Assembly: GCF_013870515.1 (NCBI RefSeq)
Contig: NZ_JACBXA010000034.1
Span: 1 to 36,794 of the forward strand
Direction: 5' to 3'
Length of the DNA stretch: 36,794 bases
Source of the DNA: Streptomyces albidus (ex Kaewkla and Franco 2022)
Lineage (GTDB): Bacteria; Actinomycetota; Actinomycetes; Streptomycetales; Streptomycetaceae
Position numbers and translations under genes: made by a program. Below are positions 28,448-31,847 of the stretch, in pieces (the first letter of the stretch is position 1; each line of letters starts with the position of its first letter). Below the pieces are notes generated by a model that ran no database searches, was not told the DNA's origin, and saw nothing but the letters and a program-made list of their open reading frames with translations.

Positions 28448-29872
28448 TCAGGACGCCTTGGCCTCTTCCCTCTGCTCGGCGGCCCGGCTCTCCTTCACCC
28501 GGGTCTTCCGCTCCGCCGCCGCCTCTTCCGTGGCGGCTGCGGTGACGGGCGAGGCCGCCTCGTAGAACTCCTCACGCGGGTGCTCCATCGCACCGAGAGA
28601 GACCACCTCACGCTTGAGGAACATGCCGAGCGTCCAGTCGGCGAATACGCGGATCTTCCGGTTCCAGGTCGGCACCGCCAGACCGTGGTAGCCACGGTGC
28701 ATGTACCAGGCGAGACGGCCCTTGAGCTTGATCCTCGTCTTGCCGAAGACGATCATCGCGACGCCCTTGTGCAGACCCAGGCCGGCGACGGCACCCTTGT
28801 TGCCGTGCTTGTACTCGCCCTGCGGGAAGCCGCGCAGCGCCGAGATGATGTTGTCGCCGAGTGCCTTGGCCTGGCGCAGCGCGTGCTGGGCGTTGGGCGG
28901 GCAGTAGGCCGGTCCGTCGTTGCGTGCGGCCAGGTCCGGCACCTGGGCGTTGTCGCCGGCGGCCCAGATGTGGTTCGTGCCGCGGACCTGCATGGTGGCG
29001 TCGACGTCCACGTGGCCCTTGGGGCCGAGCGGCAGGCCGAATCGCGCCAGTGCCGGGTTCGGCTTCACACCCGCCGTCCACACGATGGTGCTGGAGTCGA
29101 CCTCGAGGCCGTTCTTGAGGACGACGTGACCGCCGACGCAGGACTCCAGCGAGGTGCTGAGGTAGACCTCGATGCCGCGGCTCTTGAGGTGCTCGAGGGC
29201 CCACTCGCCGAGCTTCGGACCGACCTCCGGGAGGATGCCCGGGGCGGCGTCGACGAGCATGAAGCGCATGTCCTCGCGTCGCACGTTCGGGTAGTAGCGG
29301 GCGGCGTCGCGCGCCATGTCCTCGACCTCGCCGATGGTCTCGGCACCAGCGAATCCGCCTCCGACGAAGACGAAGGTCAGCGCGCGGCGCCGGACGTCCT
29401 CGTCGTTGGTCGAGTCGGCCTTGTCCAGCTGCTCCAGCACGTGGTTCCGCAGCCCGATGGCCTCCTCGACGCCCTTCATGCCGATGCCGTTCTCGGCCAG
29501 GCCGGGGATCGGGAAGGTGCGGGAGACGGCACCCATGGCGATGACCAGGTAGTCGAAGGGCAGGTCGTAGGCCTCGCCGACCAGCGGGGCGATCGTGGCG
29601 ACCTTACGGTCCTGGTCGACGGTGGTGACGCGACCGGTCAGGACCTCGGCCTTGGGCAGCACGCGTCGCAGCGGGACGACGACGTGACGCGGCGAGATGC
29701 TGCCTGCGGCGGCTTCGGGGAGGAAGGGCTGGTACGTCATGTACGAGCGCGGGTCGACGACGGTGACGGTCGCCTCGCCGTAGCGCATCTTCTTCAGGAT
29801 GCGGCGCGCCGCGTACAAGCCGACGTACCCGCCGCCCACTACGAGGATTCGGGGACGCTCCGTGGTGCTCAT
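28448..29872 (-). CDS. ndh: Type II NADH dehydrogenase (NDH-2)
   Basis: A 474-residue flavoprotein that passes electrons from NADH to quinone without pumping protons. The first dinucleotide motif is RILVVGGGYVGLYAAR (residues 8-23, FAD). The second is VFVGGGFAGAETIGEVEDM near residue 170 (NADH). The C-terminal FAD contact is IWAAGDNAQVPD near residue 300. The C-terminal ~80 residues contain a membrane-associating amphipathic segment (RKIRVFADWTLGMFLKREVV) and a Glu/Ala-rich tail. The ATG at 29872 has only a distant AGGTGG. The Rex-like site at 30178-30193 lies 306 bases upstream, suggesting control by NADH/NAD+ ratio. Confidence 0.92.
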   Translation of the reverse strand: MSTTERPRILVVGGGYVGLYAARRILKKMRYGEATVTVVDPRSYMTYQPFLPEAAAGSISPRHVVVPLRRVLPKAEVLTGRVTTVDQDRKVATIAPLVGEAYDLPFDYLVIAMGAVSRTFPIPGLAENGIGMKGVEEAIGLRNHVLEQLDKADSTNDEDVRRRALTFVFVGGGFAGAETIGEVEDMARDAARYYPNVRREDMRFMLVDAAPGILPEVGPKLGEWALEHLKSRGIEVYLSTSLESCVGGHVVLKNGLEVDSSTIVWTAGVKPNPALARFGLPLGPKGHVDVDATMQVRGTNHIWAAGDNAQVPDLAARNDGPAYCPPNAQHALRQAKALGDNIISALRGFPQGEYKHGNKGAVAGLGLHKGVAMIVFGKTRIKLKGRLAWYMHRGYHGLAVPTWNRKIRVFADWTLGMFLKREVVSLGAMEHPREEFYEAASPVTAAATEEAAAERKTRVKESRAAEQREEAKAS

Positions 29873-30256
29873 GCCATCGAGTATCCACCTGGCCTGGGGG
29901 GTGACCTCGTGAGGGGCTTCACAAGCATCCCCCCACCCCCTGCTACACTGCGCCGCCACGCATCCGGGGCCGTCGAGCCCCCACCCGGCGGGCAAGCCTC
30001 GAAGGGCCGCGGCACAGGCCGTGAGCTGCACTTATCGTCTTCACCACGAGAATGTCGCCGAGGCTGCAACACGGACGTGATCCGGCCGGAATTCGCCGTT
30101 CTCGAAGCTCTGGCCCGGCCGGTGCCTCACATCAGCCCCGAACGGGTGTGATCTGCGTCCGACGAGGCACTTTTCCAAGTGAATTATTTCACGAGACTGC
30201 TTCTGGAGGGCTTCCGCAGGGCCACACGGAGCCCTTTCAAAGGAGTTCGGGCGTGC
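29873..30256 (-). other. Long leader/promoter region of ndh
   Basis: 384 bases without a gene. The Rex-like palindrome at 30178-30193 contains AATAAT (minus strand, 30183-30188), a good -10, which would give a leader of about 300 nt. No conserved riboswitch or convincing small gene was recognised in the leader. Confidence 0.5.
30178..30193. promoter_or_regulatory. Candidate Rex operator (ROP)
   Basis: AGTGAATTATTTCACG contains GTGAA-N4-TTCAC, and 14 of 16 positions fit the TGTGAAnnnnTTCACA form known for Streptomyces Rex. Rex represses respiratory genes and is released by NADH. ndh is, as I recall, one of its targets in S. coelicolor. The site covers the likely -10 of ndh. Confidence 0.7.
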
Positions 30257-31183
30257 TCAAGTGAGGCTCCAGGCAATGCCGTCGAGGATGTCGTGCTCGC
30301 TGACGACGACCTCCTCGGCACCCGTACGTTCCATGATCGTCAGCAGTGCCAGTGCGCCCGCCCCGATCACGTCCACGCGGCCGGGGTGCACGACGGGGAT
30401 CGCCGCGCGTTCGTCGTGGGTGGCGGAGAGCAGCCGCTGCGCGATCTCGCGGACCTGCACTGCCGAGACCCTCGAGTGATGGATCGCGGCGGAGTCGTAG
30501 GAGTCCAGGCCGAGGGCGATGCCTGCGACGGTGGTGACCGTGCCGGCGAGGCCGACGAGCGTACGGGCCTCCGCCAGCGGAACCGTCCGCTCCACCTCGT
30601 CCAGCGCGGAGGCGACGTCGGCCCGCACGGCCTCGATCTGCGCGGGGGTGACCGGGTCGGAGAGCTCATGGCGCTCCGTGAGCCGTACGCAGCCGACGTC
30701 CACGGAGCGCGCTGCACGCACCTCTTCGTCACCCACCACGAACTCGGTCGAGCCACCGCCGATGTCCACGACGAGATACGGCTTCTCCAGGTCGCGCCGT
30801 CCGCTCAGCTCCTTGGTGGCGCCGGTGAAGGAGAACTGCGCCTCCTGGTCACCGGTGATGACCTCCGGTTCGACACCGAGGATGTCGACGACACCCCTCA
30901 CGAACTCGTCCCGGTTCTTCGCGTCCCGCGACGCGGAGGTGGCGACGAAACGCAGGTGCTCCGCCCCGAGTTCCTCGATCGTCCGCGCGTAGGTGCGGCA
31001 GGCGGTGAAGGTGCGCTCCAGCGCCTCCGGCGCGAGCTGTCCGGTGCGGTCGACGCCCTGGCCGAGCCGGACGATCTCCATTCGCCTGTCCAGGCTCTTC
31101 AGCTCGCCCGTGGCCGGGTCGGCGTCGGCCACCAGCAGCCTGATCGAGTTGGTGCCGCAGTCAACGGCGGCGACGCGGGTCAT
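30257..31183 (-). CDS. Ppx/GppA exopolyphosphatase
   Basis: A 308-residue member of the sugar kinase/Hsp70/actin-fold phosphatases that hydrolyse polyphosphate or pppGpp. The phosphate-1 motif is VAAVDCGTNSIRLLVAD (residues 4-20). The phosphate-2 motif is YLVVDIGGGSTEFVVGD near residue 136. The acidic GDQEAQFSFTGA segment holds the catalytic Glu region. Only the two core domains are present, as usual for short actinobacterial Ppx proteins. The ATG at 31183 follows GAGGAG at a six-base spacing. It is the last gene of the conserved divIC-DUF501-ppx string and lies about 100 bases after DUF501. Confidence 0.92.
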   Translation of the reverse strand: MTRVAAVDCGTNSIRLLVADADPATGELKSLDRRMEIVRLGQGVDRTGQLAPEALERTFTACRTYARTIEELGAEHLRFVATSASRDAKNRDEFVRGVVDILGVEPEVITGDQEAQFSFTGATKELSGRRDLEKPYLVVDIGGGSTEFVVGDEEVRAARSVDVGCVRLTERHELSDPVTPAQIEAVRADVASALDEVERTVPLAEARTLVGLAGTVTTVAGIALGLDSYDSAAIHHSRVSAVQVREIAQRLLSATHDERAAIPVVHPGRVDVIGAGALALLTIMERTGAEEVVVSEHDILDGIAWSLT

Positions 31184-31283
31184 GCGCTCTCCTCACGACG
31201 GAAGGACCCCAGCGTATGCGCGCACAGGCACCGCACAGTCCACACACCGGCCACTGAGGGCCCGGCCCCCGCACCGCGCGGGC

Positions 31284-31847
31284 TCAGCTCCCGGCAGGCT
31301 CCGACGGGGACGCAGAGAGCTGCCCGTCCTGTCCGGACGGAGAGACGCAGGGGCCCTTGGCCCACCACTCGGGTAGCAACGCCAGCGCCTCGTCACCGAG
31401 CGGATTGACGCCGGGTCCGGCCACCAGGGAGTGCGCGACCAGTACGTGCAGGCACTTCACACGGTCGGGCATGCCGCCCGCGCTGGGGAAGCCGCTGAGC
31501 ACCTCGATGGCGTCCCGGCGGGCGAGGTAGTCCTCGTGCGCGGCGCGATAGGCAGCGGCCAGGTCCTCGTCCTCGGCCAGCCGCGCCGTCATCTCCCGCA
31601 TCAGCCCGCTCGCCTCCAGCGTTCCGATCGCGGAGGCGGCACGCGGGCAGGTCAGGTAGTACGTCGTGGGGAAGGGGGTGCCGTCCTCCAGCCGGGGTGC
31701 CGTCTCCACGACGTCCGGCAGGCCGCAGGGGCAGCGGTGCGCGATGGTGCGCAGACCGCGCGGCGGGCGGCCCAACTGCTCCTGGAACGCGGCCACATCC
31801 GCGTCCGTGGGGGGCGTGGGCTCGGTCTGCGGCGGGGGCGTGTCCAT
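31284..31847 (-). CDS. DUF501 domain-containing protein
   Basis: A 187-residue cytosolic protein of unknown function, found next to divIC-like and ppx genes in many actinobacteria. The core is FQEQLGRPPRGLRTIAHRCP, then CGLPDVVETAPRLEDGTPFP, then TTYYLTCPRAASAIGTLEAS, with three Cys that could form a metal or redox site. The MPDRVKCLHVLVAHSL motif near residue 130 is typical. The C-terminal tail is Ser/Pro/Gly rich. The ATG at 31847 has a weak upstream purine run (GAAAGAG, far). It lies 180 bases after the divIC-like gene on the same strand. Confidence 0.92.
   Translation of the reverse strand: MDTPPPQTEPTPPTDADVAAFQEQLGRPPRGLRTIAHRCPCGLPDVVETAPRLEDGTPFPTTYYLTCPRAASAIGTLEASGLMREMTARLAEDEDLAAAYRAAHEDYLARRDAIEVLSGFPSAGGMPDRVKCLHVLVAHSLVAGPGVNPLGDEALALLPEWWAKGPCVSPSGQDGQLSASPSEPAGS

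Follow-up and report, generated by a model that had tools for sequence, protein, structure and literature searches.

The gene of the type II NADH dehydrogenase, ndh, is preceded throughout the genus Streptomyces by a pair of Rex-type operators, the spacing of which appears to have been kept in evolution near whole helical turns of the DNA. Judged from sequence comparison, this genus-wide pair in helical register would be a new result, and no description of it was found in the literature searched, which lay mostly outside subscription journals. The best explanation for the arrangement, to which roughly an even chance is given here, is that the paired Rex operators control ndh by means of a DNA loop. 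The window, which is the whole stretch of DNA analysed (36,794 nucleotides of Streptomyces albidus, contig NZ_JACBXA010000034.1), contains one such locus, with the following features:

28448-29872, minus strand: ndh, type II NADH dehydrogenase of 474 aa, with a Pyr_redox_2 domain
29907-29924, minus strand: proximal Rex-type operator TTGTGAAGCCCCTCACGA, 34 nt upstream of the ndh ATG
29940-29945, minus strand: TAGCAG, candidate -10 of ndh from conservation only, within the conserved block GGCGGCGGAGTGTAGCAG
30022-30029, minus strand: middle element GCAGCTCA, phased to both operators
30177-30194, minus strand: distal Rex-type operator TCGTGAAATAATTCACTT, the 18-mer being read in the ndh sense from 30194 to 30177
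30257-31183, minus strand: gene of the Ppx/GppA family, upstream of the ndh intergenic region

Both genes are found on the same (minus) strand, with ndh, whose ATG is at 29872, as the downstream one.

The distal site had been recognized in the preliminary description as a palindrome of Rex-operator form assigned to ndh, 306 nt from its start codon; the distance is correct, and both the form and the assignment are borne out by the motif and its conserved position. The palindrome, GTGAATTATTTCAC at 30179-30192, is real and not a product of chance, a similar paired site being present upstream of ndh in 388 of 392 Streptomyces genomes when altered spacings and altered proximal sites are included. 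The single exact occurrence of GTGAANNNNTTCAC in the window coincides with it, and when one mismatch is allowed three matches are obtained against 0.36 expected, one of 100 shuffles also reaching three; genome-wide, 11 exact sites were counted, versus 2 for the reversed control pattern. Compared with the Rex operator consensus of S. avermitilis, TTGTGAANNNNTTCACAA (PMC5355995), the 18-mer of the window has three mismatches, none of them within the core, and stands at the weak end of the range, since the distal sites of 151 distinct loci show 0 (one locus), 1 (107), 2 (37) or 3 (6) mismatches. The commonest distal form, TCGTGAAGTTCTTCACAA, present in 84 of these loci, matches the consensus as closely as the cydA1 and rex sites listed in PMC5355995, and the commonest spacer within the site is GTTC (84/151). 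The half-site facing the proximal operator is the better one in 106 loci, equal in 38 and worse in 7, including the window. Conservation around the distal site is asymmetric and, in the alignment of the loci, reaches past the Rex motif. The distal motif is likely to be a Rex operator, which Rex would occupy; CRP was set aside as a binder on its consensus only. In six loci (L037, L040, L064, L069, L080 and L088) a further palindrome, GAACATGTTC-like and two mismatches away from the Rex consensus, stands at -238 or -239 relative to the ndh start, and other loci have weaker forms of it between -226 and -239.

The proximal operator, with its match core at 29909-29922, was absent from the earlier list of features. 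It carries two mismatches to the consensus in the window, and two (79) or three (72) among the 151 loci, while its better half-site faces the distal operator in every one of them. The commonest proximal form, TTGTGAAGGGGCGCACGA (72/151), is identical to the site given for ndh2 of S. avermitilis in Table 1 of PMC5355995, and the same study reports that S. avermitilis Rex bound an ndh2 probe in EMSA, the binding being weakened by NADH. Both operators of the window lie upstream of a respiratory gene with no more than three mismatches to TTGTGAANNNNTTCACAA, at a position conserved upstream of orthologues. Moreover, a Rex-type DNA-binding domain is encoded by one gene of the source genome (PF06971 match, 72.4 bits), and a one-mismatch operator, TTGTGAACGCGTGCACAA, is present in the locus of this gene (L182:1539-1556), where it is likely to serve autoregulation.

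The known Rex operators of S. avermitilis (rex, cydA1, atpI, nuoA1, wblE, hppA and ndh2) share the same motif, and the site listed for ndh2 is the counterpart of the proximal operator described here; in the available text of PMC5355995 one site is given for ndh2, with no mention of the distal site or of a pair. The search in that study covered 350 bp upstream of the predicted genes. Its Table 1 places the Rex site 119 nt from the predicted start of ndh2 (SAV3529), as compared with 32-34 nt from the ndh start in 140 of the present loci (34 nt in the window), which suggests that the start of SAV3529 is annotated too far downstream; if so, the distal site would fall outside the 350 bp limit.

With regard to conservation, 80 loci from relatives were retrieved on the basis of ndh, and 79 of them have both sites, the remaining one (L029) ending at a contig end. 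The pair pattern matched 378 of 392 Streptomyces genomes, while the reversed control was not found among the matches listed. In nine of the 14 non-pattern genomes the pair exists at spacings of 198, 240 (five genomes), 287 (with a changed proximal end), 312 or 333, and in another (G117) at 301 with one proximal half changed; only a 57% identical paralogue was seen in G030 and G135, and no proximal match was found in G001 and G373. At the level of the order, 178 of 197 genomes matched, all of them in the one genus (g1) to which 181 of the 197 belong. From outside the genus but within the family, the single genome examined (G503) shows 2 mismatches in the distal and 4 in the proximal site, at a spacing of 264, and such a pair was found in none of 13 genomes from two other families. 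In loci of a further genus (g4, family f3; L196-L200, L202, L203 and L208), two weak Rex-like dyads with 4-5 mismatches each, 17 bp apart upstream of ndh, replace the distant pair. The set of 151 loci was obtained from 169 by removing duplicates, after dropping L029 and a chance pair match not belonging to ndh (L174); L185 was left out owing to a contig end, and no ndh motif was obtained from L209 and L212. When the intergenic region was used as a blastn query, 72 of 101 genomes gave matches, mostly over the 84 nt adjoining ndh; this had suggested that the distal site is not conserved, but was overturned by the anchored comparison of loci.

The spacing of the pair is quantised. Measured from the distal core to the proximal end, the distance in the 151 loci takes the values 240 (3 loci), 263-265 (4), 275 (1), 286-290 (84) and 297-301 (59), with spacings of 302 and 311 also among the matches listed for the wider genome set; the window, at 286, is in phase. 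The two main classes lie about one DNA turn apart. Length changes were inferred by parsimony on a tree of the ndh coding sequences of the 151 loci, and the 57 changes so obtained, a count which errors in the tree may inflate, were of 1 nt (33), 2 nt (3), 9-13 nt (18, with a mean of 10.6), and 24, 48 and 49 nt (one each), with no change of 3-8 or 14-23 nt on this tree. Among 74 disjoint closest pairs of loci, the length differed by 0-2 nt in 62, by 3 in one, by 10-12 in nine, by 23 in one and by 48 in one. As a control, the flanking interval from the ppx stop to the distal site was treated in 129 loci, the 22 of 151 without a confident ppx stop being dropped; this interval ranges from 8 to 294 nt, and the sizes of its changes are widely spread. 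With phase bins which, like the length range of 291-296, were picked after the data had been seen, no genome out of 392 had a total length in this gap between the two main classes, off-phase changes among those of 3-60 nt numbered 36 of 69 in the control versus none of 21 in the operator spacing (Fisher p 4e-6), and changes of 3-20 nt fell in the 9-13 bin in 18 of 18 cases for the operator spacing versus 18 of 39 for the control (p 5e-5).

It is the sizes of the changes, and not the period of the classes, that point to a spacing constrained to whole helical turns: taken alone, the eight spacing classes yield a best period of 11.4 without significance (p 0.16), and the changes of 24 and 48-49 nt fit multiples of 10.6 badly. 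The sequence between the sites is poorly conserved apart from a few elements, and pairwise alignments (50-73% identity) place the length difference at different positions in each lineage. Internal gaps of 3-4 nt that cancel out to a net 0 or 1 are seen in ten close pairs; the alignment itself may have produced them, and they are not counted as evidence. A coding region between the operators was ruled out, as length differences of a single base and of 11 nt occur.

As for the ndh promoter, the strongest conserved promoter-like block is GGGCGGCGGAGTGTAGCAGA, some 65-86 nt from the ndh start codon and next to the proximal site, so that transcription of ndh would be expected to start near 29930. 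Two like operators therefore flank a predicted promoter, according to sequence and conservation. A scan of 29700-30400 for sigma-70 and terminator consensus sequences found nothing. With a loose pattern, a dyad of the form TGACC-N2-GGTCA is seen in the -35 zone of ndh, 67 nt ahead of the end of the proximal operator, in 82 of 151 loci. The preliminary description had proposed instead that an AATAAT inside the distal operator is the -10 of ndh, followed by a leader of about 300 nt acting as a second control layer. The window does contain AATAAT, and a weak promoter there is conceivable, but apart from the window only L012 and L171 share the hexamer (3 of 151 loci). A leader of that length is also made unlikely by the -10-like block conserved at 29940-29945, by the proximal site. 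Nor does an RNA layer fit the alignment-wide fold (RNAalifold on either strand of 106 sequences, starting at the distal site and stopping 100 nt short of the proximal end), in which no conserved base pairing other than the palindrome itself was found, or the difference of about one DNA turn between the main length classes; the proposal as a whole is regarded as very improbable. A start near 29930 comes close to the case which that description had named against itself, a start near 29900 with no Rex effect on ndh, but a Rex-type site is found there too. A conserved structured RNA was rejected on the same fold, the single-sequence folds of the first 20 sequences being only 1.3-1.4 sd below mononucleotide shuffles; an Rfam search of 29000-31300 returned two sub-threshold matches.

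The other elements of the interval bear on two further explanations. The distance from the middle element to the distal site is 130, 142-143, 153, 164-167 or 175-177, and to the proximal site 110, 121-124 or 133, in the 143 loci with a unique match, 8 of 151 being dropped for want of one; under a looser best-match placement the element stands at other distances in 9 of 151 loci, and one scan gave no match in 4 of 151. Since this element is phased too, some protein besides Rex may play a part. It could be that the phasing is real and that the distal or middle partner is GlnR, DasR or a LacI-type repressor with a TTGTGA-N-TCACAA-like operator, the region being a complex of several proteins on a single face of the DNA in which Rex acts only at the proximal site, an alternative considered unlikely although it has several points in its favour. 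Besides the quantised position of the middle element toward both operators and the asymmetric conservation beyond the distal Rex motif, the GlnR-enriched promoters of S. venezuelae include Sven_2895 (SCO3092), for which the motif TTCACAAGGGGTGAAC is listed and the expression value given as 1 (PMC3087709), and the core of this motif falls at the middle element in the aligned locus L071; furthermore, DasR binds in vivo at SCO3092/scr3092 of S. coelicolor (PMC4398421). These GlnR and DasR targets concern the same region, for which neither study, in its available text, draws a link with Rex or with another operator. Within the 151 loci, the GlnR core TCACAAGGGGTGAA is present in three, the window not among them, and a DasR-type half-site, TGGTCYAS, in 46, in every case 151-154 nt ahead of the end of the proximal operator; in a best-match scan the full DasR consensus was barely above shuffles, and it is the half-site at one fixed position that stands out. 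Against such partners, the distal site is usually nearer to the Rex consensus (one mismatch in 107/151) than the proximal one (two or three).

A divergent promoter pointing away from ndh, GGAA[CT]-N17-20-GTT, which we take to be of the SigR type, is present in 121 of 151 loci, versus 0.44 in shuffled sequences and 10 on the ndh strand. In 120 loci its position, some 78-106 nt ahead of the end of the proximal operator, stays within a 3-base range, and one more locus has it elsewhere. A divergent small RNA might then arise from this promoter, with the distal operator as its roadblock or terminator, the spacing following the length of the RNA and not the phase of the DNA. A non-coding RNA named for the ndh locus of S. 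coelicolor, scr3092 (PMC4398421), speaks for this explanation, which is nevertheless held to be improbable: neither strand shows a conserved RNA structure in the folded part, and the length of an RNA has no cause to shift by steps of one DNA turn. A terminator of the divergent transcript beside the distal palindrome, suggested by GC stems in some loci, was set aside once the alignment-wide fold gave no support. The window itself weighs against both alternatives, as it has no GlnR motif at the middle element, no DasR half-site and no SigR-type divergent promoter, yet has retained the two operators together with the middle element and the in-phase spacing of 286, which indicates that the phasing is independent of these elements.

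The reading preferred here is a Rex repression loop, of which lengths quantised in this way would be the signature through helical phasing; a poorly conserved interval without RNA pairing, the length of which yet changes in steps of about one turn, points to a loop as well. According to this model, Rex bound at the proximal operator, just downstream of the ndh promoter, would block that promoter, and the distal operator, about 270 bp upstream, would be held on the same face of the helix. Rex, or a complex containing it, would close a loop of some 25 turns by binding to both, enclosing the ndh promoter and, in most relatives, the divergent SigR-type promoter. At a high NADH/NAD+ ratio Rex would leave the DNA, the loop would open, and ndh would be expressed, so that NADH would be re-oxidised. 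Rex is a dimer and, to our knowledge, not known as a tetramer; in the simplest model the loop would be formed between Rex dimers, and any bridging protein is only putative. No report of looping by Rex was found in the literature searched. More tentatively, and with somewhat less than an even chance, the redox-controlled loop may operate at ndh genus-wide and, in the relatives, also join the inputs of GlnR, DasR and SigR, that is, nitrogen, aminosugar and thiol stress signals in addition to NADH/NAD+.

Among the known systems, several Rex sites are found at cyd of Bacillus subtilis, and we know of no phased distal operator among the Rex targets of this species. There, Rex represses yjlC-ndh and cydABCD (PMC5355995). 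The closest likeness is offered by the LacR loops of E. coli, which likewise depend on two operators and on helical phase, and which in vivo fit 11.08-11.60 bp per turn (PMC1762422); the period of the spacing classes at ndh, 11.4, is within this range, while the single steps average 10.6. The LacR loop, however, involves a tetramer and has been proven by experiment, whereas the ndh pair is deduced from natural variation in spacing.

This natural variation in length over hundreds of genomes amounts to a ready-made helical-phasing experiment, and the sizes of tree-based insertions and deletions between paired operators could reveal other hidden loops in bacterial genomes. If the loop is true, it would represent a mode of action of Rex absent from the papers found, and the known ndh operator would be one half of a larger switch. 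Streptomyces ndh would then be a compact model for the way in which redox, nitrogen and aminosugar signals come together at one promoter.
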